A stretch of DNA of 50,856 bases. Origin: Calditrichia bacterium. GTDB taxonomy: Bacteria > Calditrichota > Calditrichia > RBG-13-44-9 > J075. A program made the translations under genes and the position numbers. The notes beneath the pieces were generated by a model. The model searched no databases and had not been told where the DNA came from. It saw nothing but the letters and a program-made list of their open reading frames with translations. Where the stretch lies: the NCBI GenBank assembly GCA_028284905.1, contig JANQQU010000070.1:1-50856 (forward strand), written 5' to 3'. Shown in pieces: positions 3,417-50,856 of this stretch. Each line of letters opens with the position of its first letter. The stretch's first letter is position 1.

Positions 3417-3735
3417 TAACCCCTTCAGGGTTAATAAATGAATTGTCTTTAGCAGGGGGCGTTGAAAGATCGCCCCCTGCTATGAATATGTAACACCTTC
3501 GGCGTATTATACCGCAAAGCGGTTGCATTTTTTAACCCCGGGGCTGTTTATTAGCCCGGGTTAAAAAAGTTAAAAGTATCTTATCCTGATAGGGTTTCAC
3601 AAGAAGCTATCAACCCTTGGCGTATTATACCGCAAAGCGGTTACATTTTTTAACCCGGGGCTGTTTATTAGCCCCGGGTTAAAAAAGAGAAATGAATTTT
3701 ACCCTGAAAGGGTTTCAAAAGAAGCGATCAACCCT
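3417..3735. repeat. Chain of small hairpins with a 118-bp tandem unit
   Basis: This gap is almost entirely built from small palindromes. They are TAACCC/GGGTTA (3417-3433), an 11-bp stem AGCAGGGGGCG/CGCCCCCTGCT (3451-3481), ACCGCaaaGCGGT (3511-3523 and again from 3629), and an AT-flanked GC stem. The unit starting GGCGTATTAT at 3501 repeats at 3619, a period of 118. In copy 2 the large stem is perfect: 17 bp, 3646-3662 with 3670-3686, loop of 7. In copy 1 it has a 2-base bulge (3528-3568). A third partial unit follows (3721 on). It could act as a terminator between the dioxygenase and esterase genes. A likely relative is at 41301-41375. Confidence 0.75.
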
Positions 3736-5960: not shown

Positions 5961-6014
5961 AGTGGCAGTAGCAGTGGGCAGTTGCAGGATAAGTCTTTGC
6001 TGCCCACTGCTACT
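5961..6014. repeat. GCAGTR word array with inverted partner, convergent-gene hairpin
   Basis: The words GCAGTA, GCAGTG, GGCAGT and TGCAGG recur at 6-7 base spacing. AGTAGCAGTGGGCAG (5967-5981) is perfectly inverted at 6000-6014. It begins 2 bases after the response-regulator stop and lies before the stop of the convergent gene at 6059. It can act as a terminator for both. The same word family appears at 24815-24880. Confidence 0.7.
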
Positions 6015-8726: not shown

Positions 8727-11132
8727 TTATTCGTAGCGAATTGCATTTACCGGATTTGCCAACGCTGCTTTTAGCGCTTGAAAGATGACGCTGCCAGCGG
8801 CGATGAGAAAAGCGAGTGCTGCGCTAAAGAGAAAAGCGCCAATCCCCAACTCGTAATGATAGGGAAAGCCGTTGAGCCATTCCTGCATATAAAAATAGGC
8901 GATGGGCCAGGCGAGTAAATTCGCGAATAATACCAGGCGGGTAAATTCATCGGATAGCAGGGTGACAATACCGGGAATGGAAGCACCGAGTGTTTTTCGG
9001 ATGCCGATCTCCTTGCGCCGTTGCTCGGCAGTGTAGGATGCTAGGCCAAAGATGCCCAGGCAGGCGATAAAAATTGCCAGTCCGGAAAAGTAGATAAAAA
9101 TTTCCATAAATCGCGCTTCAGAATTGTAGAGCTGGTGAATGTCTTCATCCAGGAATGTGCTGCTGAACGGCTCATCCGCGATGATGGTGTCCCATTTATC
9201 TTTCAGAAAATCGATAGCTGCCGGCATATCGCGGGCGCTAATTTTAATCGACATCCAGTTGATCCAGTTCCGGGACATAAAAAAGACTGCCGGTTGAATT
9301 TCCGTATGCAAAGATTCGAAGTGAATATTACGAGCGACGCCGACCACTGCGCCTTTTTTCGGAATCCATTGAAAACTGTCGTTGACGGTGCTGGTTTCGA
9401 ACCATTTTCCAAGCGGTTGCTCCCATCCGATTTCCTGAACAGCAGCTTCGTTGAGAATAATTCCTTCCTCAAAATCCGATCCGTATGCCTCGGAAAAGCT
9501 GCGTCCCTCAATGATCTCGATACCTAAAGTTTCGAAGAAATCGTAATCGACGGTGACGACTTTGATCGATGTTGCTTTCTCCGGATCGACCCCTTCTGCC
9601 TTGTAGCCAAGGTTGCTGCTCAGGCGGCGTGTCGGTCGTTTGTTTGAGGCGGTGACACTTATAATGTCGCTATTCTTCAGAACTTCTGTTTTATAAGTCG
9701 CATACAATTCCTGCCCCGGATGGGGAATGATGACGACCTGCTCCGGTTCGATACCGAGCTTTTTGTTGCGGAGAAAATCCAGCTGGTTATAAGTGACAGT
9801 GGTGCAGATTATCAACACGATGGAAATACTGAATTGCAAAATTACCAGCCCTTTGCGCAGCCAGGAGGCCGAAGAACGAATACTTTTAATGCCTTTCAGA
9901 ACAGCAAGGGGATTAAAGGCGGAAAGGAAGAAAGCCGGGTAACTACCTGCAAAGATTCCAACCAGCAGGGAGAGGCCGAAAAAGCCGGCGAGTAAAGGCC
10001 AGTTATTGGCAACATCGATTGCCATTTCCTTGCCGGCAAATTCGTTAAAGACAGGTAAAAATAAGAGCACGATGAGAAATGCCAAACCGACGGCGAACAG
10101 GGTGATTAGGATTGCTTCTCCCAAAAATTGGGTGATTAGCTGCTGCCGATAGGCCCCGAGTACTTTTCGCATTCCTACTTCCCGGGCGCGATTGGCCGAG
10201 CGGGCTGTTGCCAGATTCATGTAATTAATCGAAGCGATTAGCAATAGGAATGCGGCAATTGCACTGAATATGTAAACATAAAGAATGTCGCCATTTGGCT
10301 CAATTTCACCGCGCAGGTGGGACTTTAGATGAATGTCCTTCAAGGGCTGTAAATAAAGTTCGGCAAAGTTATTGAAATTTTCATCAACATGCCTGGTGCC
10401 AAAATCCGGAAGTTGACTTTCCAGTCTGCTGGCAGCATAATTTTCCGGCAATCGTAAATAGGTATAACTGCTTCCTTCCCCCCAGTTTTGCAGAACGATG
10501 TCGAGGAAAATTTGCGGTCCGGTATTCATGGACATCATCATATCGAAATGGAAATGGGAATGAACCGGCATCTCCTCCATAATCCCGGTAACTCTCCAGT
10601 CGTGGTATTCGCCGTAATGTTCGATGCGTAATGTTTTGCCAATCGGGTCTTCTTCACCAAAGTATTTTTGAGCAACCGCCTCGGTAAGAACGATCGAAAA
10701 TGGCGCTTGCAGAACGGTGGCAGGATCTCCGTTGATTAAAGGCGCGGTGAAAAACTGAAAGAAATCTTCGTCCGCAAAACATAGTCCGGTCTCCTGAAAA
10801 CGAAGATCATCTTTTTCTACCATGGCATGCCAGGGGCGTAAGCGAATGGCTGCTTCGATTTCATTAAAAGCGGATTTCAGTGTGGGGGCAAGGCGATAAG
10901 ACATAATAGGGGAAGAGGAGATGCTGCCATTCGGTCGTTTCCAATCGATCGCCACCCGGTAGATCCGGTCTCCATCCAAATGATGCTGATCGTATTTTAA
11001 TTCGTCCTGCACAAACAGGACAATAAGGAAACAGCAGGCAATACCGATTGCTAATCCCAGGACATTTATCAGGGAGTAAGCTTTGTATTTGCGGATATTG
11101 CGCAGGGCGATTTTAAGATAGCTTTGCAACAT
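8727..11132 (-). CDS. ABC transporter permease, MacB/FtsX type
   Basis: The 801-residue protein has the FCB-type layout: an N-terminal LKIALRNIRKYKAYSLINVLGLAIG segment (read as LKIALRNIRKYKAYSL plus the membrane part INVLGLAIG) with the first membrane helix, a large periplasmic MacB-core domain, a three-helix FtsX unit (about 285-420), a second periplasmic domain, and a C-terminal FtsX unit containing RRKEIGIRKTLGAS. It ends ANPVNAIRYE. Such permeases work with an ATPase in mechanotransmission, exporting lipoproteins or peptides, or in cell-envelope stress. No ATPase gene is adjacent, so its partner must lie elsewhere. fdhD lies upstream on the same strand, separated by a 300-bp repeat-filled gap. 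Confidence 0.88.
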   Translation of the reverse strand: MLQSYLKIALRNIRKYKAYSLINVLGLAIGIACCFLIVLFVQDELKYDQHHLDGDRIYRVAIDWKRPNGSISSSPIMSYRLAPTLKSAFNEIEAAIRLRPWHAMVEKDDLRFQETGLCFADEDFFQFFTAPLINGDPATVLQAPFSIVLTEAVAQKYFGEEDPIGKTLRIEHYGEYHDWRVTGIMEEMPVHSHFHFDMMMSMNTGPQIFLDIVLQNWGEGSSYTYLRLPENYAASRLESQLPDFGTRHVDENFNNFAELYLQPLKDIHLKSHLRGEIEPNGDILYVYIFSAIAAFLLLIASINYMNLATARSANRAREVGMRKVLGAYRQQLITQFLGEAILITLFAVGLAFLIVLLFLPVFNEFAGKEMAIDVANNWPLLAGFFGLSLLVGIFAGSYPAFFLSAFNPLAVLKGIKSIRSSASWLRKGLVILQFSISIVLIICTTVTYNQLDFLRNKKLGIEPEQVVIIPHPGQELYATYKTEVLKNSDIISVTASNKRPTRRLSSNLGYKAEGVDPEKATSIKVVTVDYDFFETLGIEIIEGRSFSEAYGSDFEEGIILNEAAVQEIGWEQPLGKWFETSTVNDSFQWIPKKGAVVGVARNIHFESLHTEIQPAVFFMSRNWINWMSIKISARDMPAAIDFLKDKWDTIIADEPFSSTFLDEDIHQLYNSEARFMEIFIYFSGLAIFIACLGIFGLASYTAEQRRKEIGIRKTLGASIPGIVTLLSDEFTRLVLFANLLAWPIAYFYMQEWLNGFPYHYELGIGAFLFSAALAFLIAAGSVIFQALKAALANPVNAIRYE

Positions 11133-11154: not shown

Positions 11155-11365
11155 AGTTCAAAATTCGGAGTTCAAAGTTCAGAGTCTTATCTCGTTCCTA
11201 TTCCGGAGGACCGGAATGGGAACGCAATTGTTTGCGAAATTCTGTTTCGCGGGCAAGAACTGATTGGGAAACAGAGTTTCCCGCATACTTCATTCCCATT
11301 CCGGCCCTCCGGAATAGGAACGAGGCCCTAACGAGGTGTCAACTTTGAACTCCAAACTCTGAATT
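11155..11365. repeat. Nested inverted repeat: heptad arrays around a 32-bp stem
   Basis: The left flank reads in heptads AGTTCAA, AATTCGG, AGTTCAA, AGTTCAG (11155-11182). The right flank carries the inverted heptads TTGAACT, CCAAACT, CTGAATT (11345-11365). Between them a 32-bp stem with one mismatch joins 11191-11222 (starting CTCGTTCCTATTCCGGAGG) and 11293-11324. The loop holds a further imperfect inverted pair around CTGTTTCGC / GGGAAACAG. It fills most of the gap between the permease and fdhD. It may be a terminator after fdhD or a mobile palindromic element. Confidence 0.75.
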
Positions 11366-12322: not shown

Positions 12323-12404
12323 AGGAAATGGGCAGATATACAAATATGCAAATGTATCATTGCCTTATTTGTATTTTTGCCCATTTGCCCATTTGTATAT
12401 TTGC
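12323..12404. repeat. GGCAAATG / ATATAC word array with inverted partner
   Basis: The gap between fdhD and mrp holds AAATGGGCAGATATACAAATATGC and, inverted, GCCCATTTGCCCATTTGTATAT (both shown in part). ATATACAAAT (12336-12345) pairs perfectly with ATTTGTATAT (12391-12400). The array ends 7-10 bases from the mrp stop on the minus strand. The same GGCAAATG word is used on the other side of mrp (13628-13677). Confidence 0.65.
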
Positions 12405-12410
12405 TTCTTA

Positions 12411-13490
12411 TTACCGTCCGACTCTTTCCAGTAATCCCTGCGCCAGCAGTTCCTTGGCAATTTCCCTAAATGCTTTGGTGGCCTCACTGTCCGGGTTTTT
12501 GGCAACAATCGGTACGCCGGTATCACCGCCTTCGGCAATTTCCGGATCAATAGGAATTTCGCCAAGAAAAGGCACGCCCAATTCAAAGGCTGCTTTCGGG
12601 CCACCACCTTTACCGAAAATGTAAACCGGCTCCCCGGTGGCAGCGTTGGGATAAAAACTCATATTTTCTAAGATGCCAAAGGTTGGAGTGTTCAGCTTTT
12701 TAAACATTTGGTATCCCCGGCGGGCGTCCACCAGAGAAACTTCCTGCGGGGTGGTTACGACGACAGCGCCGGTAATCGGGGTCTTTTGGACCAGGCTCAG
12801 CTGCACATCACCAGTGCCGGGAGGCAAATCGATAACCAGTACATCCAATTCTCCCCAGGCGACATCTTTCAGGAACTGATCGACAGCCTTGATGACCATC
12901 GGGCCGCGCCAGACAACCGGCGTATCTTTATCGAGAATGAATCCCATCGACATCATCTTGATATCATACTTTTCCAGAGGGAGCAGTTTTTGATCCTGAT
13001 TGACCATCGGTTTGTCATGAATACCCATCATAATGTCGACACTGGGGCCGTAGATGTCGCTGTCCATCAAACCAACTTTCAGACCTTCCTGGGAGAGGGC
13101 AATTGCCAGATTAGTACTAACAGTGGATTTGCCAACGCCGCCTTTACCGGAAGCAACTGCCAGCACACTTTTAATACCCGGGATCGGCGCTCTGCCAGCC
13201 CAGGGATCATTTGGCTTGGCATTCTGCCCGGGCATGGCCATGGTCGGAATTCCTTCCATTACCATCACGCGACGCTCGGGAAGTTCTGCTTTCATTAAGT
13301 CCTGTATTTCCTGCTTGACGGTCGCCTTGGTCTCCGCATTCTTTGTATTAAACTTTAAATCGATAGTGATTCGACTATCCTGAATATTGATATTGCTGAT
13401 TATCCCGAAGGTAACAATGTCATGGTTAAAGCCGGGGTAAGAGATTCTGCTAAGGAGCGATCGGATATAGTCTTCGGTTATCTGGGGCAT
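12411..13490 (-). CDS. mrp: Mrp/NBP35-family iron-sulfur carrier ATPase
   Basis: The 359-residue protein has an N-terminal MIP18 (DUF59) domain (about 5-75) and a SIMIBI ATPase domain with deviant Walker A SGKGGVGKS at 114-122, then DSDIYGPSVDIMMG and DLPPGTGDVQLS. Mrp/ApbC proteins hold and transfer 4Fe-4S clusters to apo-enzymes in the cytoplasm. The cysteine pair normally found after ENMS (CPHC in many homologues) is absent: the segment reads ENMSFYPNAATGEPVYIFG. The same loss is usual in Bacteroidota-type Mrp, which supports an FCB origin and means cluster binding must use other residues or partners. It is flanked on both sides by word-repeat hairpins. Confidence 0.92.
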   Translation of the reverse strand: MPQITEDYIRSLLSRISYPGFNHDIVTFGIISNINIQDSRITIDLKFNTKNAETKATVKQEIQDLMKAELPERRVMVMEGIPTMAMPGQNAKPNDPWAGRAPIPGIKSVLAVASGKGGVGKSTVSTNLAIALSQEGLKVGLMDSDIYGPSVDIMMGIHDKPMVNQDQKLLPLEKYDIKMMSMGFILDKDTPVVWRGPMVIKAVDQFLKDVAWGELDVLVIDLPPGTGDVQLSLVQKTPITGAVVVTTPQEVSLVDARRGYQMFKKLNTPTFGILENMSFYPNAATGEPVYIFGKGGGPKAAFELGVPFLGEIPIDPEIAEGGDTGVPIVAKNPDSEATKAFREIAKELLAQGLLERVGR

Positions 13491-13627: not shown

Positions 13628-13677
13628 GCAAATGGGCAAATGGGCAAATGAACAAAAATGCAAAAATGCCCATTTGC
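13628..13677. repeat. GGCAAATG tandem array with inverted partner
   Basis: CAAATG recurs at 13629, 13637 and 13645, an 8-base period. The word GCAAATGGGCA (13628-13638 or 13636-13646) is perfectly inverted as TGCCCATTTGC (13667-13677). The array ends 5 bases before the plsX stop on the minus strand, and lies in front of mrp. Confidence 0.7.
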
Positions 13678-13682
13678 ATATT

Positions 13683-14726
13683 CTATTGATCAAACATGCG
13701 CATATAAAATTCTTTCATGGATTTTTCCATACTCTTGACCAGGTCACTCTGCGCGGAAAGTTCTGCCAGCAAAATGGCGTTCATAATCGCTTTTGCTTTA
13801 GAGCGGCCGTGCGCTTTGATAATCAGTTTTTTGAATCCGAGAATAGGTGCGCCGCCGTATTCGGAATAATCCAACCGCCGCTTTAATTTCTTTAGTACCG
13901 GGGAAAGCATTAAAAGTCCCGCCTTGGAAAGCAGATTTTTTTTCCAGATGCGTTTACCGGTTTGCACGGACAGTTCCGCCATGCCCTCAATGCTTTTCAA
14001 GGCTATATTGCCAATATATCCTTCCGTAACGATGACGTCGGCAACGCCGCGCATGATATCTTTCCCTTCGATATTTCCGATGAAGTTAATTGATGGCATT
14101 TCCCGGAGAGTTTTGTTCGTTTCTTTCAACACTGCGTGACCCTTGGTTTCCTCGGTGCCGATATTCAGGAGACCAACGCGCGGATTGGGGATTGCCATAA
14201 CTTCCTGCAAATAGTGAATACCCATAATTGCAAAACTGACCAATTGCGGCACGGTGCAATGTAAAGTGGCGCCAATATCAAGAATAATCGAAATGCCCGG
14301 ATCTTCCCGTTTTTGTTTCATTGCCGGAAATACTGTGGCAATCACCCCGCGTTCGATACTGGCCATGCGGGGAATTTCCCGGGAGCAGGCCATGACAGTT
14401 GCACCAGTGCTGCCGGCGCTAACCAGGGCGTCGCCTTTGCCATCACGAATCAGCTTGGCGGCAACAACGATAGAAGAATTAGGTTTTTCTTCAATCGCCG
14501 TTTTCGGATCTTCTTCCATACCGATAACATCTGTCGACGGTACCACATGCCAGCGATCTTTGGAGAGCTTTTCCTGCAATAACATGTCCATAATGCTATT
14601 TTCTTCACCGACAAAAATACATTGAATAGTCTTGCTTTCCTTGCAGGCCATCACCGCGCCTTTTATTATTTCTTGCGGTGCGTGATCTCCGCCCATTGCA
14701 TCGATAACAATTCGATTATATTTCAT
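13683..14726 (-). CDS. plsX: Phosphate acyltransferase PlsX
   Basis: The 347-residue product has the PlsX signature from the start: RIVIDAMGGDHAPQEIIKGA. Later come SAGSTGATVMACSREIPR, the NIGTEETKGH segment and IEGKDIMRGVADVIVTEGYIGN (split by function, not shown in full). PlsX turns acyl-ACP into acyl-phosphate, which PlsY uses to make lysophosphatidic acid. It is a peripheral membrane enzyme. Length is standard. The usual neighbours rpmF and fabH are not in the window. mrp follows downstream on the same strand across a word-repeat gap, and upstream lies a long non-coding stretch before ppdK on the other strand. Confidence 0.95.
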   Translation of the reverse strand: MKYNRIVIDAMGGDHAPQEIIKGAVMACKESKTIQCIFVGEENSIMDMLLQEKLSKDRWHVVPSTDVIGMEEDPKTAIEEKPNSSIVVAAKLIRDGKGDALVSAGSTGATVMACSREIPRMASIERGVIATVFPAMKQKREDPGISIILDIGATLHCTVPQLVSFAIMGIHYLQEVMAIPNPRVGLLNIGTEETKGHAVLKETNKTLREMPSINFIGNIEGKDIMRGVADVIVTEGYIGNIALKSIEGMAELSVQTGKRIWKKNLLSKAGLLMLSPVLKKLKRRLDYSEYGGAPILGFKKLIIKAHGRSKAKAIMNAILLAELSAQSDLVKSMEKSMKEFYMRMFDQ

Positions 14727-21518: not shown

Positions 21519-21852
21519 CATTTACCGGGGCAGATAACAAGTGGCATATTAAAAAAAATGTGCCATCTGTTAAGTGCCTCAGGAAACCAGAATTTGCCAG
21601 AGACTTCCTTGGGAATCACAATTTTTTTACCGGTTTATTGCGGATATCAGTCCGATTAGACATCTGATCAGGTTAACTGGTTACCGCTAGAGACTTTCGC
21701 CGCAGGCCCCATCACGTATAAGATTTAGCGGCCACAGGCGCGACCACCACGGTATTATCACCCGCTTCTTGCTCGAAATCAGTCATTTTCGAGAACTTTC
21801 AGGATACTGTACTCCAGCGACCCCGGCACTTTCGTGGAAAAGGAAGTGTGCG
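21519..21852 (+). other. 334-bp leader before RNase E/G gene
   Basis: No gene is supported here. A short frame extends the RNase gene upstream to 21769, but it lacks a ribosome site and family resemblance, so I treat the stretch as 5' leader. RNase E mRNAs often have long leaders used in autoregulation. A weak stem TGGCA...TGCCA occurs at about 21543-21567. Nothing stronger is visible. Confidence 0.4.
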
Positions 21853-23433
21853 ATGTACAAGGAAATTATTATTAACTCTACGAATGAGGATATCCGTATT
21901 GCTATTATGGAAAGCGGTAAGCTCGTAGAGATTTTTGTGGAACGGCCGGATCATGAAAGAATGGTCGGGGATATTTACAAAGGGAAGGTTCGAAAAGTAG
22001 TTAAAGGCATGCAAGCAGCATTTATCGATATCGGTTTTCCGCAGGATGGATTTCTGCATTTTTCCGATATGGGCGATAATATGAATCAACTATTTGTCGA
22101 TGTTGTGCAGGATGCCGTTGAGAAAAATGGCAGTGATAAAAGCAATGGCAAGGAAAACGGTGGCGGCAGACGTCGTGGACGGAGAGGGAGCGGTGGTGTT
22201 GATCCCTCCGAAATGCTCCGGAACGGCCAGGAAATTACCGTGCAAATTGTCAAAGAGCCGATTTCCAACAAGGGCCCGCGGGTTAGTACCGAACTAACAA
22301 TTCCCGGGCGTTTTTTAGTACTGGTGCCAAACCAGCAAAGAATTGGGGTTTCCCGCAAAATTTCATCTTCGAAAGAGCGCCGGCGTTTACGGACGTTGGT
22401 TCGTAAAATGCTGCCGGAGAATTTCGGTCTGATTGTCCGCACGGTTGCTGCGGATAAACCCAGTAAATTAATCGAACAGGATTTGAGCAAGCTGCTTAAG
22501 CAGTGGGAAGAAATTCAGTCCAGTATGAATGATGCAGAGCCTTATACGCTCCTTTTTCAGGACCTTGGAATGGCTTCCAGCGTTATTCGCGATCTCTTTA
22601 CGGAAGATGTTAAGCGAGTGGTCGTCGATTCCCGGAAAATGTATCGGGAAATTACCCGCTATCTGAAATATGTCGGCTCGTCCTTGCTGGAGAGAGTGGA
22701 ATACTACAGGGGCAAAAAACCGGTTTTTGATGTCTATAAGATCGAAGATGAAATACAGCGCAGTCTGCAGAAAAAAGTCTGGATGGATAATGGCGGTTAC
22801 GTGATTGTCGAACATACCGAAGCATTAACGGTGGTCGATGTGAATAGTGGGCGCTATTTCGGCCGGAAAGACCATGAAAAAAATTCCCTGAAAATCAATT
22901 TGGAAGCCGCCCGGGAGATTGCCCGGCAAATGCGCTTGCGCGATGTCGGTGGACTGATCGTTATCGACTTTATTGATATGGAAGATGCATCCAATAAACG
23001 CAAGGTACAGTCCGAACTGCAACGGGAATTTTCCCGTGACCGCGCTGTTAGCAAAATTGAGCCGATCAGCCGTTTTGGCCTCATCGAAATGACCCGCCAG
23101 CGCATCCGGCCCAGCCTGATTTATAATATTGCCAAATCCTGCCCCACTTGCGAAGGTAACGGATTGATCTGGACGGAAGGGACGGTCATGGCAAATATTG
23201 AGCGGGCGATTCGCCGCTACGTCGCATCCCGCCTGGACCGCCGGGTGATTGTTCAGGTGCATCCGGATATGATCGAATATCTGGATGACAAAAAGAGCGG
23301 CCGCCGCTTTAAGCTGATGTGGAAATACTGGGTGCGGATTATTGCCGAGACTGATGAGACTTTGCTGCCGCATGAATTTCGCTTGCTCACCAAGCGTAAC
23401 CGTAAAGATGTAACTAAAGATTTTGCATATTAA
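21853..23433 (+). CDS. rng: Rne/Rng family endoribonuclease
   Basis: With the ATG at 21853, behind AAAGGAAG, the product is 526 residues. It begins MYKEIIINSTNEDIRIAIME as in RNase G. An S1 domain (about 35-140) is interrupted by a Gly/Arg/Asn-rich insert (GGGRRRGRRGSGG). The RNase H-like catalytic region follows, with TVVDVNSGR and IVIDFIDM supplying the metal-binding aspartates. The Zn-link CPTCEGNG comes next and then a C-terminal tail. There is no long degradosome scaffold, so it is RNase G-like. It cuts single-stranded AU-rich RNA with monophosphate 5' ends, in rRNA maturation and mRNA decay. The gene ends directly at a heptad array (23435-23505). Confidence 0.93.
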   Translation: MYKEIIINSTNEDIRIAIMESGKLVEIFVERPDHERMVGDIYKGKVRKVVKGMQAAFIDIGFPQDGFLHFSDMGDNMNQLFVDVVQDAVEKNGSDKSNGKENGGGRRRGRRGSGGVDPSEMLRNGQEITVQIVKEPISNKGPRVSTELTIPGRFLVLVPNQQRIGVSRKISSSKERRRLRTLVRKMLPENFGLIVRTVAADKPSKLIEQDLSKLLKQWEEIQSSMNDAEPYTLLFQDLGMASSVIRDLFTEDVKRVVVDSRKMYREITRYLKYVGSSLLERVEYYRGKKPVFDVYKIEDEIQRSLQKKVWMDNGGYVIVEHTEALTVVDVNSGRYFGRKDHEKNSLKINLEAAREIARQMRLRDVGGLIVIDFIDMEDASNKRKVQSELQREFSRDRAVSKIEPISRFGLIEMTRQRIRPSLIYNIAKSCPTCEGNGLIWTEGTVMANIERAIRRYVASRLDRRVIVQVHPDMIEYLDDKKSGRRFKLMWKYWVRIIAETDETLLPHEFRLLTKRNRKDVTKDFAY

Positions 23434-23434
23434 A

Positions 23435-23505
23435 AGTTCAAAGTTCAGAGTTCAAGGTTCAGAGTTGAATTATAGCTTTGAACTTTAAACATTGAACTCT
23501 GAACT
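23435..23505. repeat. AGTTCAR heptad array and inverted heptads
   Basis: Immediately after the rng stop come five in-register heptads: AGTTCAA, AGTTCAG, AGTTCAA, GGTTCAG, AGTTGAA (23435-23469). After 8 bases there are four inverted heptads: TTGAACT, TTAAACA, TTGAACT, CTGAACT (23478-23505). The best stem is 14 bp, 23442-23455 with 23492-23505. Several alternative registers can pair. Confidence 0.85.
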
Positions 23506-23620
23506 ATCTTTTATTCAGTTTACCGGGAGATTAACTGAATGATGCTGTTCCGTGACGGCAACTGTTATCACTATCTAAGTGTAGTTTACTGTTAATTGAA
23601 AAAACAGAGGAGTTTTAGTA

Positions 23621-24814: not shown

Positions 24815-24880
24815 AAGTGGCAGTAGCAGTTGCAGTCGGCAGGAAAGAATTACTGCCACTGCTTACTGCTACTGCCACTT
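24815..24880. repeat. GCAGTR word array with 16-bp inverted partner
   Basis: GCAG recurs at 24820, 24826, 24832 and 24839 (6-7 base steps). AAGTGGCAGTAGCAGT (24815-24830) is perfectly inverted at 24865-24880, followed by a T run. It lies between convergent genes and ends 2 bases from the stop of the minus-strand gene at 24883. It shares its word with 5961-6014 and is a likely two-way terminator. Confidence 0.8.
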
Positions 24881-24882
24881 TT

Positions 24883-25980
24883 TTATTCTTCTCGTTTGTC
24901 CTGCAATAATTCTTCGTATTCTTCCTTCGCTTCCAGAACAATATCAATATATGACTGACTGTCGGAAAGAAATCCGGCTTTTTCCATCAGCGTAAAGAAA
25001 GCAGTGAAAGATGCCAGTAGTAAATTCTCACCGGTCTCGTTGGCTTTCATCTTCCGGAAGAAATAATCGAGCATAAATTCTTCTACCAGGTCTGCTTCAA
25101 AGGAAAGCAGATAATTCTGGCGATTGTCGATTAAAAAGTTGTTGAGGAAAGTGCGGATATTTTTGCGTTGTGCGCTAACTTCCGTTGCAGAAAACTCCTG
25201 GCTCTCGAGATACTTACCAAACAGGCTAACCACGCCACTGTGCAGTTCCCGGGCTTTCGGAATGTTCGGGTCATCTTCCTGATAAAAATTGACCCCGCCT
25301 TCCAGGCCAGCCAATTCTTGATGGAGAGTAGAAAGCGCGGAAAACTCATCGTCCGGCAGGAGGGCTTTAGCTGCAGCTGGATCTATCTCGGGAACTTCCG
25401 GTGTATCCAATGTGAATGCCGGTGCTGCCGCGCTGACCGGTTCTTCTGCCGGTGCTGTTGCTGCGGGTGCGCCTTCATCTGCTTCCTCTTCCTCGGGGGC
25501 GAAGTTTACATCAACTGCTGCCTGAATTTCTTCCGCTGTAAAGCGATTCAGCTCTTCTTCGGTATGGCTTTCCGGGGAGAAGTGAATGTGGCGCTTCAGC
25601 ATAATGTCGCAAAGCTCCTCAAAATTCATCTCCGAAGACCAGGGTTGCTGCTCGTAAGCGGTTTTCAATGTTGCGAGTTTGATGTCCCGCTGGGCCATAT
25701 CCTGCTCTGCAAAGCCCTGCCAGAATCCCTGAATGAGGGTTGCTAATGACTGCATGGCAGTCATGTCCTGTGGCTGAGCGAGCATAACGATCGGCTCGGA
25801 AAAGTCCATCATGCTTTTCGCCGGGCCAGACATTCCGCCGGGCATATTGCCGGGCATATTCATCATAAACTGTTTTCTTTTCGGGCGGGTCTTGCGAACG
25901 GCTTTTTTGACTGAACGCCGCTTCAGCGCTTTCGCCTGACGATTTTTCTGATTTTTCTTTTTACTCTTCTTCTTCGCCAT
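24883..25980 (-). CDS. Unknown protein with a basic N terminus and acidic linker
   Basis: The 365-residue product starts with a strongly basic stretch of about 40 residues (Lys/Arg-rich, KKKSKKKNQKNRQ), then NMPGNMPGGMSGP. A helical region (about 70-165) is joined by an Ala/Glu/Pro-rich acidic linker (about 165-205) to a helical C-terminal domain (about 215-360). The basic tail suggests binding to nucleic acid or ribosomes. I recognise no family. There is no signal peptide. It is transcribed alone, converging on the DUF932-like gene with a shared hairpin, and lies upstream of nothing obviously related. Composition resembles neighbouring genes. Confidence 0.6.
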   Translation of the reverse strand: MAKKKSKKKNQKNRQAKALKRRSVKKAVRKTRPKRKQFMMNMPGNMPGGMSGPAKSMMDFSEPIVMLAQPQDMTAMQSLATLIQGFWQGFAEQDMAQRDIKLATLKTAYEQQPWSSEMNFEELCDIMLKRHIHFSPESHTEEELNRFTAEEIQAAVDVNFAPEEEEADEGAPAATAPAEEPVSAAAPAFTLDTPEVPEIDPAAAKALLPDDEFSALSTLHQELAGLEGGVNFYQEDDPNIPKARELHSGVVSLFGKYLESQEFSATEVSAQRKNIRTFLNNFLIDNRQNYLLSFEADLVEEFMLDYFFRKMKANETGENLLLASFTAFFTLMEKAGFLSDSQSYIDIVLEAKEEYEELLQDKREE

Positions 25981-34721: not shown

Positions 34722-34753
34722 AATTCGGAATTCGGAATTCGGAATTCCGAATT
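34722..34753. repeat. AATTCGG heptad array ending in a palindrome
   Basis: Three tandem AATTCGG heptads (34722-34742) run into AATTCCGAATT, so that 34736-34753 is a perfect 18-bp palindrome. It ends 1 base before the stop of the minus-strand fusion gene at 34755. The same three heptads occur at 44624-44644. Confidence 0.8.
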
Positions 34754-34754
34754 T

Positions 34755-37070
34755 TTACAATTCGTTCAGAATTTCATCCAGGTTTTCAATGACCTGATCG
34801 ACATTATCCCGGGAAAACACCAATGGTGGCTTTATCTTAATAACATTGTGTAGCGGACCATCCGTGCTGAGGAGGATACCGCGGTTGCGCATTTCTTCGA
34901 TAATCATACTGGCGGTTTCTGCGGCTGGTGTTAAAGTTTCCCGGTCGTGAACCAATTCTGCCCCAATAAATAATCCCAATCCACGCACATCCCCGATGAT
35001 TGGGTGACGAGCCTGTAATTCCCGTAATTTTTCCAGGAAATAAGTGCCGGTGCGCTGGGCGTTTTCCTGAAGATGGTCATCCTCGATTGCATCTAATACC
35101 GCCAGACCAACAGCGCAGGAGACCGGGTTACCACCGAACGTATTGAAATACTCCATGCCATTGTTAAAGGCATCGGCAATTTCCGGCGTGGTGATTACCG
35201 CCGCGAGTGGATGGCCATTGCCAATTGGTTTACCGAGGGTGACGATGTCCGGCACGACATCCTGATGCTCAAATGCCCAGAAGTGGCTACCGACCCGTCC
35301 GAAGCCAACCTGTACTTCATCGGCAATGCAAAGTCCGCCGGCTTTCCGGATATGTTGAAAAGCGGTTTTCAGGTAGTTCGGAGGCAGCACAATCTGTCCG
35401 CCACAACCGAGCAGCGATTCACAAATAAATGCTGCCGGCTGTTTACCCTGATCGGCCATTTCGTGGATGATTCGCTGGACATCCGCCGCATATTTTTCAC
35501 CGGCCTGCGGATCATCACTACGATATGCACCGCGGTAAGGATCTGGCATCAGTGCTTTATGAATGTGCGCTTCCGCGCCCTTGCCCCCGGGACCGTCAAA
35601 TTTGTATGAGCTTAGTTCGATCACCGAAGTGGTGGTGCCATGATAGGCGCCGTCGACCACGACAATATCTTTTTGTCCGGTAAAATTGCGGGCGAGTCGC
35701 AAAGCCAGATCATTCGCTTCGCTGCCGGAACAGGTAAAAAAGCATACGCTGAGCGGATCGGGAAAAGTGGCGGTTAGTCGCCGGGCATATTCTACTAAAT
35801 GATCATGAAGATAGCGCGTATTTGTATTCAAACGGGCAATTTGCTGCTGCGCTGCCCGCGCGACTCGCGGATGGCAATGCCCGACATGACAAACGTTATT
35901 CACACAATCCAGGTAGGTCTCTCCATTTTCCTCAAAGAGATACTGCATGGCCCCGCGATTGATTTTCAAATGCTTTTGATAGGAAATGCTCATGTTTCGC
36001 CCGAGGTGCTTTTTCCGCGCTTTCAGGAGAGCGGTCGATGTCTCTTTAGGCTGGGAAGGAGACATATTACAGGCTTCCCGGAAAATAGCTTTGGCATGCT
36101 CCGGGTTAATAGCAATAAATTTTTCGAGTAAGTCCCAGGCGGGTTTTTCGCTGACCCGAATATATTCGTTCTCCGGATCTTCGGTGATTTTTTTAGCGGA
36201 CATACTAACGCTGACGCAGAGCCGCGCGCAGATCAGGTAGAAAAGGATGTCGACCTCCCGGCGCTGCAGGGGAAATACTGAGTGATACCCGCGAATAACT
36301 GTTGCTGCTGCGGCAAGTGGATCGGCTTTCCCCATCAGGGTATAAGCAAGGGTAATCGCCAGCTCACAAATTGTGTTGGAGTAGAGCAAGTCGCCGAAGT
36401 CGATAATGCCGCTAATCTTTTTACCATCACTGAGCAGATTGTAATCGTTGCCGTCGTTATGGATGACGCTCATCCGCAATGTTTGCAGCTCGGGCAACGC
36501 TTCAGTTTCAAATTGGAGATAAAAATATTCGGCAATTGTCCTTCGTTGTGGGTCTCTGATAAACTTTGTGAGCGGCAAAACCATTAGCGTATTGCGCAGA
36601 TCCCAGTCATAATGTCGCCGGGCCGCTGGATGGGAAAAACCGGCTAAATGCTGATCGATGGTTCCCATAAATTTGCCAATGTTGCTGAGTAGTTCCGGAG
36701 AATGATCTTCAACGTCGACCAGGAAACGACCTGGCAGAAAAGATAATAGACGGGCCAGGTGCGTGACGCCGTTTTTGCCATCCAGACGGCTAATCGCCTG
36801 GCCGGCTTTATCCGAAAAAGTTTGCTGGCAGGGAATTGCCGGCGTCGCTTTGGCAAGCAGTGTCATTACCTGATGCTGCGCATCCAGATACCAATAGTCC
36901 TCCTCGGCATGATAAATTTTGAAAACATATTCCTGCCCGTTGTTGACATCCCGGGCATGAAAATTCTGATCATCATAGCTGACTAATGATTTAACAGTGG
37001 CGGAAATGCCATACTGATTGGCGAGAATTTCCTGCACTTCTTTTTCGGAAAACCGGGGAGGCGTTACCAT
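34755..37070 (-). CDS. Fused APH-type kinase and class III PLP phospho-lyase
   Basis: With the ATG at 37070 (GGAG at 7 bases) the product is 771 residues. Its first 330 residues are an aminoglycoside-phosphotransferase-like kinase with the catalytic loop HNDGNDYN and the metal Asp in IIDFGD. The rest is a class III aminotransferase fold very like AGXT2L1/AGXT2L2: [46 protein letters not shown] and the PLP lysine in [11 protein letters not shown]. In vertebrates the corresponding separate enzymes phosphorylate hydroxylysine and eliminate phosphate and ammonia from phosphohydroxylysine or phosphoethanolamine. The fusion should phosphorylate an amino alcohol and then split it. An M23-like domain often present in bacterial fusions is absent. 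The substrate is unknown. Confidence 0.88.
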
Positions 37071-37284: not shown

Positions 37285-38127
37285 ATGAGAAATATTTTCA
37301 AAATACTATTGGTCTGGGGAATTCTAATTCTGGCTGGTGGGCAGTTATTGGCGGACTCGCTGGTGCGCATCACTTTGAAGAATGGCCACCAGTTTGAAGC
37401 AGTCATCAACAAGATCGAGAAATGGGGACTGAAGGCGGAAGATGGCCGCACAATTGCTTTTAGCGTCATCGACAATATTTTTACGCCGGATGAAGCTTTC
37501 GTTGCGGAAATCGCTGCTGTGTTACCAGATCTCGCCCCGAAAAAAAGCGCGCGTGGATATGATTATGATATGAAGAATGTCGTGCTGCCAACGGTGGAAT
37601 CTCCCCAAAAAAATTACTTCCAGTATAATCAGCCTCTGGGTATCATTTTTACCGGGTCGACGAAAAAACTGGATGGCCTGCGGGCAGCAATACAGATAAA
37701 ACCGGAAAAAAGCAAACGCTTCTTTTTCCGGGCGGGCTTCTCCCAGGGCAGCTACCGTACCGGCGATATCTATCGACTGGAATTGGAAGATGCCATTGTT
37801 GATTCTTCCATTTTGGAATATTCTGCTGCTGGCTTTGATATCGGCGGTGGCATCTCCTTTCGGATACCACCGGGAGAAATTTTGCTAATGCTCAATTACG
37901 GAAAAAAATGGCTGGACGCCCGGGCGGATACCGATACGGAAGAGAATCGCGAGATTTTCTCCGAATCACGGGATATGATTTCCATCAGCGCCTATTACCA
38001 TCCAAAAGCTTTGGAGAAGGTGCCGCTGCTCATTTCCATCGGTCCGCGCTACTATTTCCGCGATATTAAGACGTTCGAAAACGGCGGACAGCTTTCCGTG
38101 GATATTGGGTTGGGATTTGTGTTTTAA
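37285..38127 (+). CDS. Exported protein with Sm-like N terminus and beta-barrel C terminus
   Basis: The 280-residue product has a signal peptide (to about LLADS), then a short SH3/Sm-like module (LVRITLKNGHQFEAVINKIE, GLKAEDGRTIAFSVIDNIF, about 25-70). The C-terminal 160 residues have alternating hydrophobic strands (for example FFFRAGFSQGSYRTGDIYRL, in part, and VPLLISIGPRYYFRD) and end in VDIGLGFVF, a terminal Phe as in outer-membrane beta-barrels. It is probably an outer-membrane protein of unknown role. The gene stands alone between the divergent fusion gene and a convergent alkaline phosphatase. A heptad array begins 16 bases after its stop. Confidence 0.65.
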   Translation: MRNIFKILLVWGILILAGGQLLADSLVRITLKNGHQFEAVINKIEKWGLKAEDGRTIAFSVIDNIFTPDEAFVAEIAAVLPDLAPKKSARGYDYDMKNVVLPTVESPQKNYFQYNQPLGIIFTGSTKKLDGLRAAIQIKPEKSKRFFFRAGFSQGSYRTGDIYRLELEDAIVDSSILEYSAAGFDIGGGISFRIPPGEILLMLNYGKKWLDARADTDTEENREIFSESRDMISISAYYHPKALEKVPLLISIGPRYYFRDIKTFENGGQLSVDIGLGFVF

Positions 38128-38142
38128 AGAAAAAGAGAAGAT

Positions 38143-38264
38143 TCAATATCCAATATCCAATAACCAATATTCAATATCCAACGCTCAATTTTTTCTGTAA
38201 ATTGGTAAGTTTTTTCGTCTTCTACTTCAATATTGGACATTGGGCGTTGGATATTGGACATTGA
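38143..38264. repeat. CCAATAT heptad array and inverted heptads
   Basis: Seven in-register heptads (TCAATAT, CCAATAT, CCAATAA, CCAATAT, TCAATAT, CCAACGC, TCAATTT; 38143-38191) are followed by 38 bases. Then come five inverted heptads (ATATTGG, ACATTGG, GCGTTGG, ATATTGG, ACATTGA; 38230-38264). AATATCCAACGCTCAAT (38173-38189) pairs with 38239-38255 with one mismatch. It lies between convergent genes. The word recurs at 50733-50756. Confidence 0.85.
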
Positions 38265-39485: not shown

Positions 39486-39790
39486 TTCAACCTCCTTATT
39501 AGTAATAAATCCATTATCAAACACAATAAAATATAGTGTTTAAGTGTTTGTTTTTGATTGGTTTGAGGTTTCTTTTTTGTGAAGGGTGTGTTGAGTAAAA
39601 GATATGGTTGTAATGTTTTTTTAATAGGCTGAAGTTATTAGACATTCAGGCTCTAGGAGAAAAATATCAATAGCTTACCTACTTCCCTAAACCGCTAACC
39701 GCCTAATCCCTAATTGCCTACCCACAAAAAAAATCACCCGAGCCTGGGGAGGACTCGGGTGGGTGGTAGGTGGTAGATGCAGGGTTCTTA
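39486..39790. other. 305-bp intergenic region with word repeat and terminator
   Basis: No gene is supported. It holds the promoter side of the alkaline phosphatase gene, a CCTAA-rich stretch in which CTAA recurs at 39687, 39695, 39703 and 39710 and CTA at 39718 (7-8 base steps), and the sulfotransferase terminator. CCTACCCAC (39717-39725) is approximately inverted at 39759-39770 (GTGGGTGGTAGG). Confidence 0.6.
39726..39761 (-). terminator. Rho-independent terminator of the sulfotransferase gene
   Basis: On the minus strand CACCCGAG pairs with CTCGGGTG (39735-39761), with inner CCT/AGG pairing. It is followed by eight T (A run at 39726-39733 on the plus strand). It lies about 30 bases after the sulfotransferase stop. 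Confidence 0.9.
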
Positions 39791-40897
39791 TTATGATGAG
39801 GCAAATGATTGGTCGCCATTTCCTGACAGGGGGCGGCCGGGTGATACCGTTTTTCGGGTGCGTCTGAATTTCAATTTATACTCTTCCCGGTAAGTCCGGG
39901 CTTTGCTGATCAGGCCTTTTATTCCTTCACCGCGCAGTAGTTTCCGGAAAGCGTTCTGCAGATGATGCCAGATAAGGCGACGGAGGCTGACATTTTCGCC
40001 CAGTAACTCCGGGTGGGTGACTTCGTAGCCGAGGAAGTCCAGCAATTCTCCCCCCATTCGTTCAAATGCTTTCACTTGCGTCGGGCCCATTTCTTTTTTC
40101 CATTTATTGTAATTATCCCGTTTGACTTTTGGAGAGGTGACTTTTTCGAACTCCCGCACCAGTGTGAACTGATCGCCACTGTAATCAATGAAACGGAGCA
40201 AGCGGGCGAATTCCCTTTCCGGATGCTGTACCCATTTTTCATAAAACATTTCGATGTAAGTCGCTCGGCCAAGATCACGTCCGAAATTGATGGCACTCTG
40301 CACGCGTTTGCCCCAGTGCAAAGCAGCAAGTAACGGATCTTTCGGGCCCCACTCCAGTTTGGAGAGGGAAAGCGCCACATCGCGCCCGTCACGAATCAGA
40401 TGAACAAACTTGGCGTCGGGGAAAAGTTGAAACAGTTCGCGGGCATGGATGGCATAATCCGGGGTTTTCCCACCCCAGCGATCTGCGCCTTTCAGATATG
40501 CCCACTCAGCATAAAAGCGGCGGACGATTTCTGCGTAGGTTCTTTCTTCCATATTTTCAATAAATTCATCCACATCAATATGTAAACCTTTAAAGCGCTT
40601 GGCAAAGTCCGGGATTTCGATGATATCCTGTATCAGGCGGCGGAGATTATCCAACTCGTTTAAATCCCCGTAAAAAGGGAGAAGCTTGATTAAACGGATG
40701 AAATGACCATTATCCCGGCCAAATCCGATGCGGAGATGCCGCTGGACCAGCCGATATAGGAATGAAGTGCCGGATCTCTGGGAACCGATAATAAAGATCG
40801 GGGCAGAATTTTTAATTCTGCGAATCGCAATTTCTTTCTCAGATAAGCGGTTGCTTTTTAAATACTGGCTGGTGTCAGCGGTTAAAATACCTTCCAT
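39791..40897 (-). CDS. PAPS-dependent sulfotransferase family protein
   Basis: The 368-residue protein has the P-loop-like 5'-phosphosulfate site IIGSQRSGTSFLYRL (36-50). The 3'-phosphate site HLIRDGRDVALSLSK lies about residues 166-180 (Arg and Ser contacts), in the standard order for sulfotransferase family 3. A catalytic His/Glu is likely but not certain from sequence. It moves sulfate from PAPS to a carbohydrate, lipid or peptide. No signal peptide is seen, so it is cytoplasmic. AAAGGAAA precedes the ATG. No PAPS synthesis or acceptor genes are adjacent. It has its own terminator. Confidence 0.85.
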   Translation of the reverse strand: MEGILTADTSQYLKSNRLSEKEIAIRRIKNSAPIFIIGSQRSGTSFLYRLVQRHLRIGFGRDNGHFIRLIKLLPFYGDLNELDNLRRLIQDIIEIPDFAKRFKGLHIDVDEFIENMEERTYAEIVRRFYAEWAYLKGADRWGGKTPDYAIHARELFQLFPDAKFVHLIRDGRDVALSLSKLEWGPKDPLLAALHWGKRVQSAINFGRDLGRATYIEMFYEKWVQHPEREFARLLRFIDYSGDQFTLVREFEKVTSPKVKRDNYNKWKKEMGPTQVKAFERMGGELLDFLGYEVTHPELLGENVSLRRLIWHHLQNAFRKLLRGEGIKGLISKARTYREEYKLKFRRTRKTVSPGRPLSGNGDQSFASS

Positions 40898-41375: not shown

Positions 41376-41378
41376 GGC

Positions 41379-41399
41379 CTAAAGCCTAAAGCCTAAAGC
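41379..41399. repeat. Three tandem CTAAAGC heptads
   Basis: CTAAAGC is repeated three times exactly, ending 2 bases before the stop codon of the minus-strand BNR gene (41402). No inverted partner is visible. Confidence 0.8.
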
Positions 41400-41401
41400 C
41401 T

Positions 41402-44623: not shown

Positions 44624-44644
44624 AATTCGGAATTCGGAATTCGG
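44624..44644. repeat. Three tandem AATTCGG heptads
   Basis: AATTCGG is repeated three times exactly, identical to the start of 34722-34753. It lies in the gap between the divergent BNR and sigma-factor genes, so it is not next to a stop codon. No inverted partner is close, except a loose GAATTCAGAATTC at about 44709. Confidence 0.75.
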
Positions 44645-44812
44645 AATTTGCCTACTACTGCGTCCGGGATTGTTTTGAAACTTTATAGTGAATGTGGCAA
44701 TAAAAAAGAATTCAGAATTCTCAATATAAAATATCCAATGTTGAAGGTTTTTCTTTAACTGAGTTTGTAAACTTTTGGTATAACATCTTAATGCGCCGGG
44801 GGCGATGATCGA

Positions 44813-45382
44813 ATGAAAGAGCGGTATCAGACATCCAGCGATGCGGATTTGCTGATTGCAATTCGCACGTCAGATGCAGAGGCCTTTGAGGCACTCTATT
44901 ACCGCTATTATGGGGAGATTAAGGGATTTATTCGCCGTAAATTCGGATTGGATGAAGAAGCTGCCCGCGATTTGCTGCAGGAGGTGTTTGCGCGCATTTG
45001 GGAAAAGCGAGGGACCCTCGACCCGGAAAAATCCATTCGGGCTTTTCTTTATCAGATTGCCCGTAACCGTTGTATCGATCAATTGCGCAAATCCGGGCGG
45101 GAAGTAAATCTTTCCCTGGCAGAATATGAAGCACTGGTCGCCGATGTGCCGGATGATTTACAAATGCTCGTTCAGCAAGCAGTCAATCAACTACCGGCGC
45201 CATTGCGGGAAGTAGTAGTGATGAAGTGGATCGAAGGCCGAAAATACAAAGAGATTGGACAAATTCTCGGCATTTCCCCCCGCACTGTGGAACAACGAAT
45301 GGGTAAAGCGATGAAAATTCTGCTGCAAAAATTGAAGGATGCGCTGATCTTCTTGGCTTTTTCGAGTATTATTAATCTTTGA
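44813..45382 (+). CDS. ECF sigma-70 factor (FecI-like)
   Basis: The 189-residue protein has sigma region 2 (about 20-90: EAFEALYYRYYGEIKGFIRR (in part), DLLQEVFARIWEKR, FLYQIARNRCIDQLRK) and region 4 (about 120-175: LPAPLREVVVMKW, YKEIGQILGISPRTVEQRM), and nothing between, the ECF layout. It should direct RNA polymerase to the receptor or export genes of this locus when released by the FecR-type protein encoded at 45746. The two are separated by a 360-bp repeat-filled gap, whereas such pairs usually lie close together. Confidence 0.93.
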   Translation: MKERYQTSSDADLLIAIRTSDAEAFEALYYRYYGEIKGFIRRKFGLDEEAARDLLQEVFARIWEKRGTLDPEKSIRAFLYQIARNRCIDQLRKSGREVNLSLAEYEALVADVPDDLQMLVQQAVNQLPAPLREVVVMKWIEGRKYKEIGQILGISPRTVEQRMGKAMKILLQKLKDALIFLAFSSIINL

Positions 45383-45387
45383 TGTTG

Positions 45388-45560
45388 CGCTCCCTGCGGT
45401 CGCTGATGGTTGCGTTCCCTTCGGTCACTGATGGCTCCGCTTCGCTGATGGTTGCCGCTCCTTTCAGTCGCTGATGGCTAAGAATCTGGAGTTACTTGTC
45501 TTTTAACCATTAACGACCGCAGGGAGTGGAGCCATTAGCGACGTCAGGAGCGGAGCCATT
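45388..45560. repeat. 25-nt tandem array with inverted copies after the sigma gene
   Basis: CTGATGG recurs at 45403, 45428, 45445 and 45471 (steps 25, 17, 26), marking four units of about 25 nt such as CTCCCTGCGGTCGCTGATGG. The inverted unit follows, with CCATT at 45507, 45532 and 45556 (steps 25, 24). CTCCCTGCGGTCG (45390-45402) pairs perfectly with 45514-45526, and ATGGCTCCGCT (45431-45441) with 45549-45559. It begins 6 bases after the sigma-gene stop. Several pairings compete. Confidence 0.8.
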
Positions 45561-50593: not shown

Positions 50594-50732
50594 ATCAAAT
50601 ACCCGTTTGCTTTGGTTTAACTGCCGTTCATGGCATCAAACGCGCAAACTAAGCAATTTTTCCCCGAAATGCAAAGCGGCGGAAAAGAAATGTTATTGAT
50701 GGGAATTTGATGAAGAAAGCGAAAAAGTAGAA

Positions 50733-50756
50733 TGTCCAATATCCAATATCCAATTT
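50733..50756. repeat. CCAATAT heptad array
   Basis: TCCAATA/CCAATAT heptads run CCAATAT, CCAATAT, CCAATTT (50736-50756), the same word as 38143-38264. An inverted partner may lie beyond the end of the window. Confidence 0.7.
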
Positions 50757-50856
50757 CCGGTAGTCACCCGTTTTGCTGTTGTTTTTTAATAGGTATCGTT
50801 TTTAGCAATTCTCTAACAGTCCATTGGTGATCAGTAATTTTGGCGGCCATTGCCGG

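Follow-up and report, generated by a model that had tools for sequence, protein, structure and literature searches.

What is the array of seven-base words that begins directly behind an RNase gene in this Calditrichia genome, and why do inverted words follow it? The window, the whole stretch of 50,856 nucleotides analysed here, is one contig (C3) of an 8.55-Mb genome. The locus is laid out as follows:

21769 to 23433, plus strand: RNase E/G family gene (rng; Pfam PF10150, E=8.5e-102), its stop codon abutting the array
23435 to 23469, plus strand: family A unit (GTTCA+RR) of five words, 1 nt past the stop, core directed away from the upstream gene
23477 to 23504, minus strand: inverted family A unit of four words

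The order is TAA (23431–23433), A, then AGTTCAA AGTTCAG AGTTCAA GGTTCAG AGTTGAA, TTATAGC, and TTTGAAC TTTAAAC ATTGAAC TCTGAAC, with TTATAGC as a single spacer word between the five direct and four inverted words at 23435–23504. The earlier note had described just this stop-adjacent arrangement of 7-nt words, and the observation stands. The strict 7-base register that it saw across both arms is chance at the rng locus, as 15 family-A pairs are spread over six classes modulo 7. Alignments with rng orthologues from five relatives reach residue 552–553 of 554. In the orthologous gap, one relative (G002) carries GCTGTAG repeats and then words resembling inverted copies, another (G005) has words with a GTGTT core, and a third (G003) has a GC-rich terminator. 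Because the gap differs among these three, the words evidently turn over, a point that had been put forward for checking.

The remaining sites listed earlier in the window all exist, and they resolve into the following units:

5961 to 6014, unstranded: family F pair (GCAGT+N, period 6), beginning 1 nt past the stop at 5959
11155 to 11185, plus strand: family A unit lying 22 nt ahead of a minus-strand gene (start codon at 11132) and directed away from that gene
11340 to 11365, minus strand: degenerate inverted family A unit, with other palindromic repeats between the two arms
12323 to 12404, unstranded: family C pair (GCAAAT+NN, period 8), 7 nt from the stop at 12411
13628 to 13677, unstranded: family C element, near the stop at 13683
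24815 to 24880, unstranded: family F pair with convergent genes on either side, the right arm ending beside the stop at 24883
34722 to 34753, unstranded: family D unit (AATTCGG, with GAATTC as self-complementary core), separated by 1 nt from the minus-strand stop at 34755
38138 to 38189, plus strand: family B unit (YCAAT+NN) of seven words, 10 nt past the stop at 38127
38232 to 38264, minus strand: inverted family B unit, 46 nt from the opposing stop
41377 to 41401, minus strand: GCCTAAA-type unit (read from the gene, AGGCTTT) that directly abuts the minus-strand stop at 41402
44624 to 44648, unstranded: family D unit in a divergent gap, away from stops
50731 to 50758, plus strand: single family B unit (AATATCC, period 7)

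That most of these sites touch or nearly touch a stop codon holds for eight of ten, which lie within ~15 nt, but not for the array at 11155–11365, 22 nt from a start codon and 67 nt from a stop, nor for that at 44624–44644, in the middle of its divergent gap. Arrays in the window number eight against 0.1 in shuffled sequence at period 7 and two against 0.1 at period 8, and no Rfam model matched within the window at the gathering threshold.

Several neighbouring features deserve description in their own right. At 45380–45560 the array design appears in a longer-word form, in which 17–25-nt words (TGATGGYTGCG...) start with the stop codon TGA of the gene at 44813–45382 and are followed by inverted 24–25-nt words (CCATTARCGAC...). 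At 39690–39790, ahead of the stop at 39791, a classic GC-rich terminator with a T-run is nested with a CTACCAC-type array on one side and inverted GGTTAG-type words on the other. Between the heptad arms at 11190–11325 lies another dispersed palindromic repeat (CGTTCCYATTCCGGAGG...CCGGAATGGGAACG), and a similar one occupies the space between arms at C47:38215. The CCTGATGCAGCCG element is found between family E arms (C52:294414) and also 3' of a family A unit (C54:113177), so different arm families can have interiors in common. Finally, a 118-bp tandem duplication fills the gap between two genes at 3496–3735.

We then asked of the genome what the window suggests. To detect arrays, intergenic DNA was scanned for maximal-scoring self-match runs at a given lag, with dinucleotide shuffles as control and genes called by a purpose-written small hexamer-based caller. 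About 1.44 Mb consisted of contiguous pieces chosen regardless of arrays (about a fifth of the genome sampled as stretches). The 1.23 Mb underlying the shuffle and stop-distance statistics include a small share of array-chosen 20-kb pieces (C47, C12 and two C67 pieces later joined contiguous), and further loci chosen for carrying arrays enter the polarity, mismatch and arm-matching counts. The 7-base autocorrelation proposed for scanning is in clear excess in the 1.23 Mb: 70 intergenic arrays at lag 7 versus 1.7 in shuffles, 26 versus 0.3 at lag 8 and 60 versus 0.0 at lag 14, while counts at lags 4, 5 and 9–13 are close to chance. In 831 kb, lag-7 arrays were intergenic in 43 cases versus nine in coding sequence; arrays occur in 87 of 823 intergenic gaps, about one in ten. 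Placement follows stop codons: 37 of the 90 arrays in gaps with at least one stop lie no more than 5 nt from it, against 7.0 under random placement (maximum 14 in 500 placements). Start proximity is not enriched, with 2 of 80 arrays within 5 nt of a start and 4.4 expected. Besides the stop-adjacent location emphasized earlier, arrays also lie beside start codons and in divergent gaps. At C52:97752, C52:294414 and C67:101878 the stop codon of the upstream gene is supplied by an array word, so arrays can overlap coding ends. The array observation is confirmed as real, and chance is excluded.

The words belong to genome-wide families. Six were set by eye from the first arrays seen and counted afterwards: A (GTTCA+RR), B (YCAAT+NN), C (GCAAAT+NN, also given as GCAAAT+GG, period 8), D (AATTCGG), E (TCGTT+NN) and F (GCAGT+N, period 6). 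Arrays mostly hold 3–5 words of 6–9 nt, and the forms with periods 6, 8 and 9 are of the same class as the heptads, in line with the kinship suggested earlier for 6–8-base forms. Mismatches between successive words concentrate in particular phases (1630 versus 1257 ± 32), and the variable phases are adjacent to a degree matched in 1 of 2000 permutations; since mismatches cluster in adjacent phases, each word is best described as a core plus a variable spacer. Unit size is also constrained. Exactly four counted cores occur in 26 of 33 family B arms, which have defined ends (RAATGTCC ... GTAGAAGT), and four are counted in 33 of 56 family A arms. Searched as exact 20-mers, family A gives 19 occurrences in this genome and family C 94, and neither gives any in 39 other genomes of the phylum. 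The proposal that sequences vary whereas period, inversion and location are kept is thus upheld within the genome and among relatives, but the words are not free: they belong to families that extend across the genome, each built on a conserved core.

The design recurs in three genera of the same family, with other words. Array counts against shuffles are 26 versus 0.3 at lag 7 in G005, 15 versus 0.3 at lag 8 in G002 and 10 versus 0.0 at lag 7 in G003. Outside the family, little is seen at lag 7 in the samples from a different family of the order (G008) or of the class (G017); G017 has five lag-8 arrays. Distant rng-bearing relatives served as an outgroup sample and contain a few similar arrays; among them, stop-adjacent arrays with inverted words, including an 8-nt CAAAGAC type, were seen in Myxococcales (Myxococcota; L040) and Thermoanaerobaculales (Acidobacteriota; L044).

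Polarity is the rule that holds: at stops and at starts alike, an array leads out of the gene into the gap. In the direction leaving the neighbouring gene, the core is forward in 62 cases versus 7 reversed at stops and in 29 versus 3 at starts, and gaps with a single arm behave alike (33:7 at stops, 19:3 at starts). The same direction appears in G-skew, a check independent of the choice of families, which points away from the gene at 71:27 for stops and 23:8 for starts, compared with ~1:1 in array-free gaps; in G005 the ratio at stops is 18:4. Where two arrays share a gap they face inward by skew in 42 cases and outward in 5, and the adjacent pairs of G003 are inward-facing in five of six cases despite unrelated words. 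Pairs that mix families are inward in all cases (12, with 0 outward), as in the 55-bp gap at C51:9666–9720, where a family C unit follows the stop and an inverted family A unit precedes the next start. Same-family pairs make up 33 of 45, compared with ~25% expected under independence, and the two arms are therefore not fully independent.

These observations bear directly on the explanations offered so far. That the arrays act as RNA hairpins, terminating transcription or protecting mRNA 3' ends as the earlier note had suggested, draws on their strong predicted folds (z −7.1 for 23431–23520 and −10.2 for 24815–24882), on stop proximity and on a shortage of canonical terminators in array gaps: 1 of 82 tandem gaps with an array versus 54 of 524 others (Fisher p 0.0035), and 4 of 48 versus 32 of 132 in convergent gaps (Fisher p 0.020). 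The folds, however, are strong because two complementary arrays must fold so, and the shortage may reflect replacement or partly less free sequence. Mismatches in the hairpins on the transcribed strand in tandem gaps comprise 45 GU and 55 AC, compared with 45 GU and 12 AC in canonical GC-stem/T-run terminators of the same genome (Fisher p=4.6e-5), whose ratio indicates that the test can detect selection on RNA. No U-tract follows the array stems (mean 2.8 T in the next 10 nt; six or more in 5 of 54), arrays per stop are similar in tandem and convergent gaps, pairs also occur in divergent gaps, and the 12 inward mixed-family pairs consist of non-complementary words unable to pair. Hence a role as RNA hairpins is very unlikely, and the hairpins look like a by-product of facing arrays. 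Template switching, the other origin suggested earlier, would combine with polymerase slippage to make the arrays a neutral product. Slippage has been suggested for the bacterial heptamer excess (as cited in PMC4692102), long arrays exist, and a few elements such as C7:56071 look mirrored; a mirror test on arms pre-selected for good pairing likewise hinted at mirroring, and a between-element test was used instead. In that test, arms match those of their own element no better than those of others (20.5 versus 21.3 in family A, 17.2 versus 18.3 in family E), and the family B values of 19.3 versus 17.8 lie within the permutation range. Local inverted copying and compensatory change are disfavoured by this result, and local inverted duplication was rejected. 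With one core at tens of loci here and none in relatives, fixed polarity and a preferred size also against it, an origin by slippage and template switching is improbable and already largely refuted. The arms might instead be the ends of cut-and-paste or RAYT-mobilised miniature elements in the strict sense (MITE or REPIN), for they are inverted, multicopy and extragenic around a variable interior, and the genome has two Y1_Tnp (RAYT-type) genes. Yet there is no target-site duplication (own 2.60 versus swapped 2.71), pairs mix families, interiors look unrelated, and the Y1_Tnp gene inspected is surrounded by other palindromes; we give such elements very little credence.

The reading that we prefer, tentatively and at somewhat less than even confidence, is that the arrays are dispersed, non-coding, polar units of short-word repeats that would spread and be retained at the DNA level through recognition of their core. 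A unit consists of ~3–5 words of 6–9 nt (roughly 25–40 nt), with variable positions between conserved cores, and a genome carries several word families side by side, each of them at tens of loci. At gene boundaries the core, and usually the G-rich strand, runs 5'–3' from gene into gap. With both boundaries occupied the units face each other, and if they share a family the result looks like an inverted repeat. The units would be spread and kept by a factor that recognises the core, insertion being tolerated only outside coding sequence. Effects on transcripts would be secondary, since the units would spread and persist as DNA. This proposal accommodates the period-specific excess and stop proximity, the core/spacer structure with clustered adjacent variable phases, the genome-specific 20-mers and word turnover in the rng gap, the preferred size, polarity, G-skew and inward facing including the mixed-family pairs, and the missing signs of RNA structure and of mirrored arms. 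Against it, the analysis identified neither a trans-acting factor nor a transposase or excision intermediate, the one of two Y1_Tnp genes inspected lacks flanking heptad arrays, interiors between arms look unrelated and have no target-site duplication, same-family pairs exceed independence, and the families were chosen by eye before counting; one recognition protein per family is also awkward with several families turning over at genus level. Its main rival holds that selection maintains the arrays as directional binding sites, tandem boxes at which cooperative proteins would mark the boundaries of genes or restrict transcription or replication on its way out of a gene in either direction. The ribbon-helix-helix proteins omega and MetJ bind contiguous 7- and 8-bp boxes, and conserved cores with variable spacers, a preferred number of words, orientation set by the boundary at both gene ends and few canonical terminators in array gaps would all suit such sites. 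However, such sites would call for many co-evolving proteins, given the several cores and periods per genome that are all replaced in sister genera; an orientation that is symmetric between the 5' and 3' ends of genes is hard to fit to a role in transcription; and the terminator deficit may partly be space occupied by the array. Binding sites of this kind are possible but unlikely. More doubtful is end-directed addition, in which intergenic break ends would be trimmed to the coding boundary, extended from a template in a telomerase-like manner and rejoined, leaving inward arrays on both sides. Such a process would be expected to produce polarity on both sides, arms that can stand alone or belong to different families, spacers that are not mirrored, a G-rich outgoing strand and genome-specific words, and DRT10 is a bacterial precedent for templated synthesis of tandem repeats (PMC12632851). 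But the only reverse transcriptase found in the genome at E≤0.001 is a single RVT_1 match of the group II intron type with an HNH domain (L248, C62:22001–29000), Ku is absent from seven genomes of the family, several templates would be needed, and simple templated copying with neutral decay would not be expected to yield a core/spacer constraint.

Whichever process is responsible, gene ends in at least one bacterial family are shaped by such units, in ~1/10 of the gaps here and likewise with other words in relatives. What were loose repeat curiosities become one testable question, namely what makes or keeps short repeats directed out of genes. Genome annotation and terminator prediction, meanwhile, risk misreading the array stems.

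How do the arrays compare with known systems? Integron attC sites are hairpins after stops with GTTRRRY boxes; they were dropped as candidates, the arrays here being multi-word and adjoining ordinary chromosomal genes. In lifestyle the dispersed units are REPIN/REP-like, outside that family. Like REPINs and BIMEs they are multicopy extragenic units, often in inverted pairs with a variable linker, some ≤15 nt from stops, but REPs are palindromic single units tied to RAYTs, whereas these are short-word arrays able to pair across families (PMC3116915, PMC12306157). One conserved palindromic doublet as replicative unit was not found; pairs mix families, interiors vary and arms are not mirrored. 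The inspected Y1_Tnp gene (C52:264555–264902, L106), whose flanks lack heptad arrays, is preceded by repeated CCTGGACTAACGTCCTGG palindromes that may constitute a REPIN system of their own; the second such gene lies at C24:34588 (L247). DRT10 likewise makes tandem short repeats in bacteria, with a 9-nt period in one system, but the genome here yielded no reverse transcriptase of that kind (PMC12632851). The TAACTGA repeats of Beggiatoaceae, cyanobacteria and Bacteroidetes and the cyanobacterial STRRs are also intergenic direct repeats of heptamers; unlike the arrays here, the TAACTGA sets are direct and lie mostly ahead of start codons, with only one indirect repeat in the Guaymas genome (PMC4679880). 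Only a few arrays of that type occur here, for instance at C52:97752 (CAGTTAT/CAGTTGA, after a stop) and C54:79657, and the main families differ from it.

The inverted, stop-adjacent form had been thought undescribed, but paired forms were already on record. According to the available text of the report on Geobacter metallireducens, three site classes (1–3) consist of tandem 7–8-nt boxes, mostly paired on opposite strands at variable distance and near unrelated genes, and a fourth is said to resemble multicopy sequences of many other genomes; the sites are read there as those of global regulators, and no analysis of stop adjacency or polarity was found in that text (PMC2700814). Closer still are the GGGAATC heptads of Xanthomonas campestris and X. 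axonopodis and the GGGGA(C/T)T heptads of Nostoc, intergenic and dispersed repeats whose quadruplexes were studied and for which no function was found (PMC4692102). The Xanthomonas heptads prefer four units, form 70–75 convergent inverted pairs, lie at a mean of ~28 nt from the nearer ORF and favour the coding strand after ORFs and the non-coding strand before them (PMC4692102). The present arrays share with them tandem 7-nt words of conserved core and variable positions (here with periods 6, 8 and 9 too), convergent inverted pairs, a unit size near four and, with Nostoc as well, a strand preference. Unlike those lineages, each with one G-quadruplex-capable word, this genome has many families, most without G-tracts (GGG is missing from the consensus words of A, B and E), and mixed-family pairs and periods of 6–9 besides; RNA structure and mirroring were also tested against statistically. 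Together, polarity and the mixed-family pairs do away with the customary hairpin or terminator reading and also with the Xanthomonas quadruplex reading. Polarity recurs here with words unable to form quadruplexes. It would be a far-reaching step, and one that we consider highly improbable, to see the Xanthomonas GGGAATC repeats, the paired Geobacter octamers and the families here as outputs of a single telomerase-like process, in which one machine conserved across phyla would write short polar repeats, whatever their word, from the boundaries of genes outward, for example by template-directed extension of broken ends. As a class, the arrays described here are a broader, mostly non-quadruplex variant of the Xanthomonas and Nostoc heptad kind.
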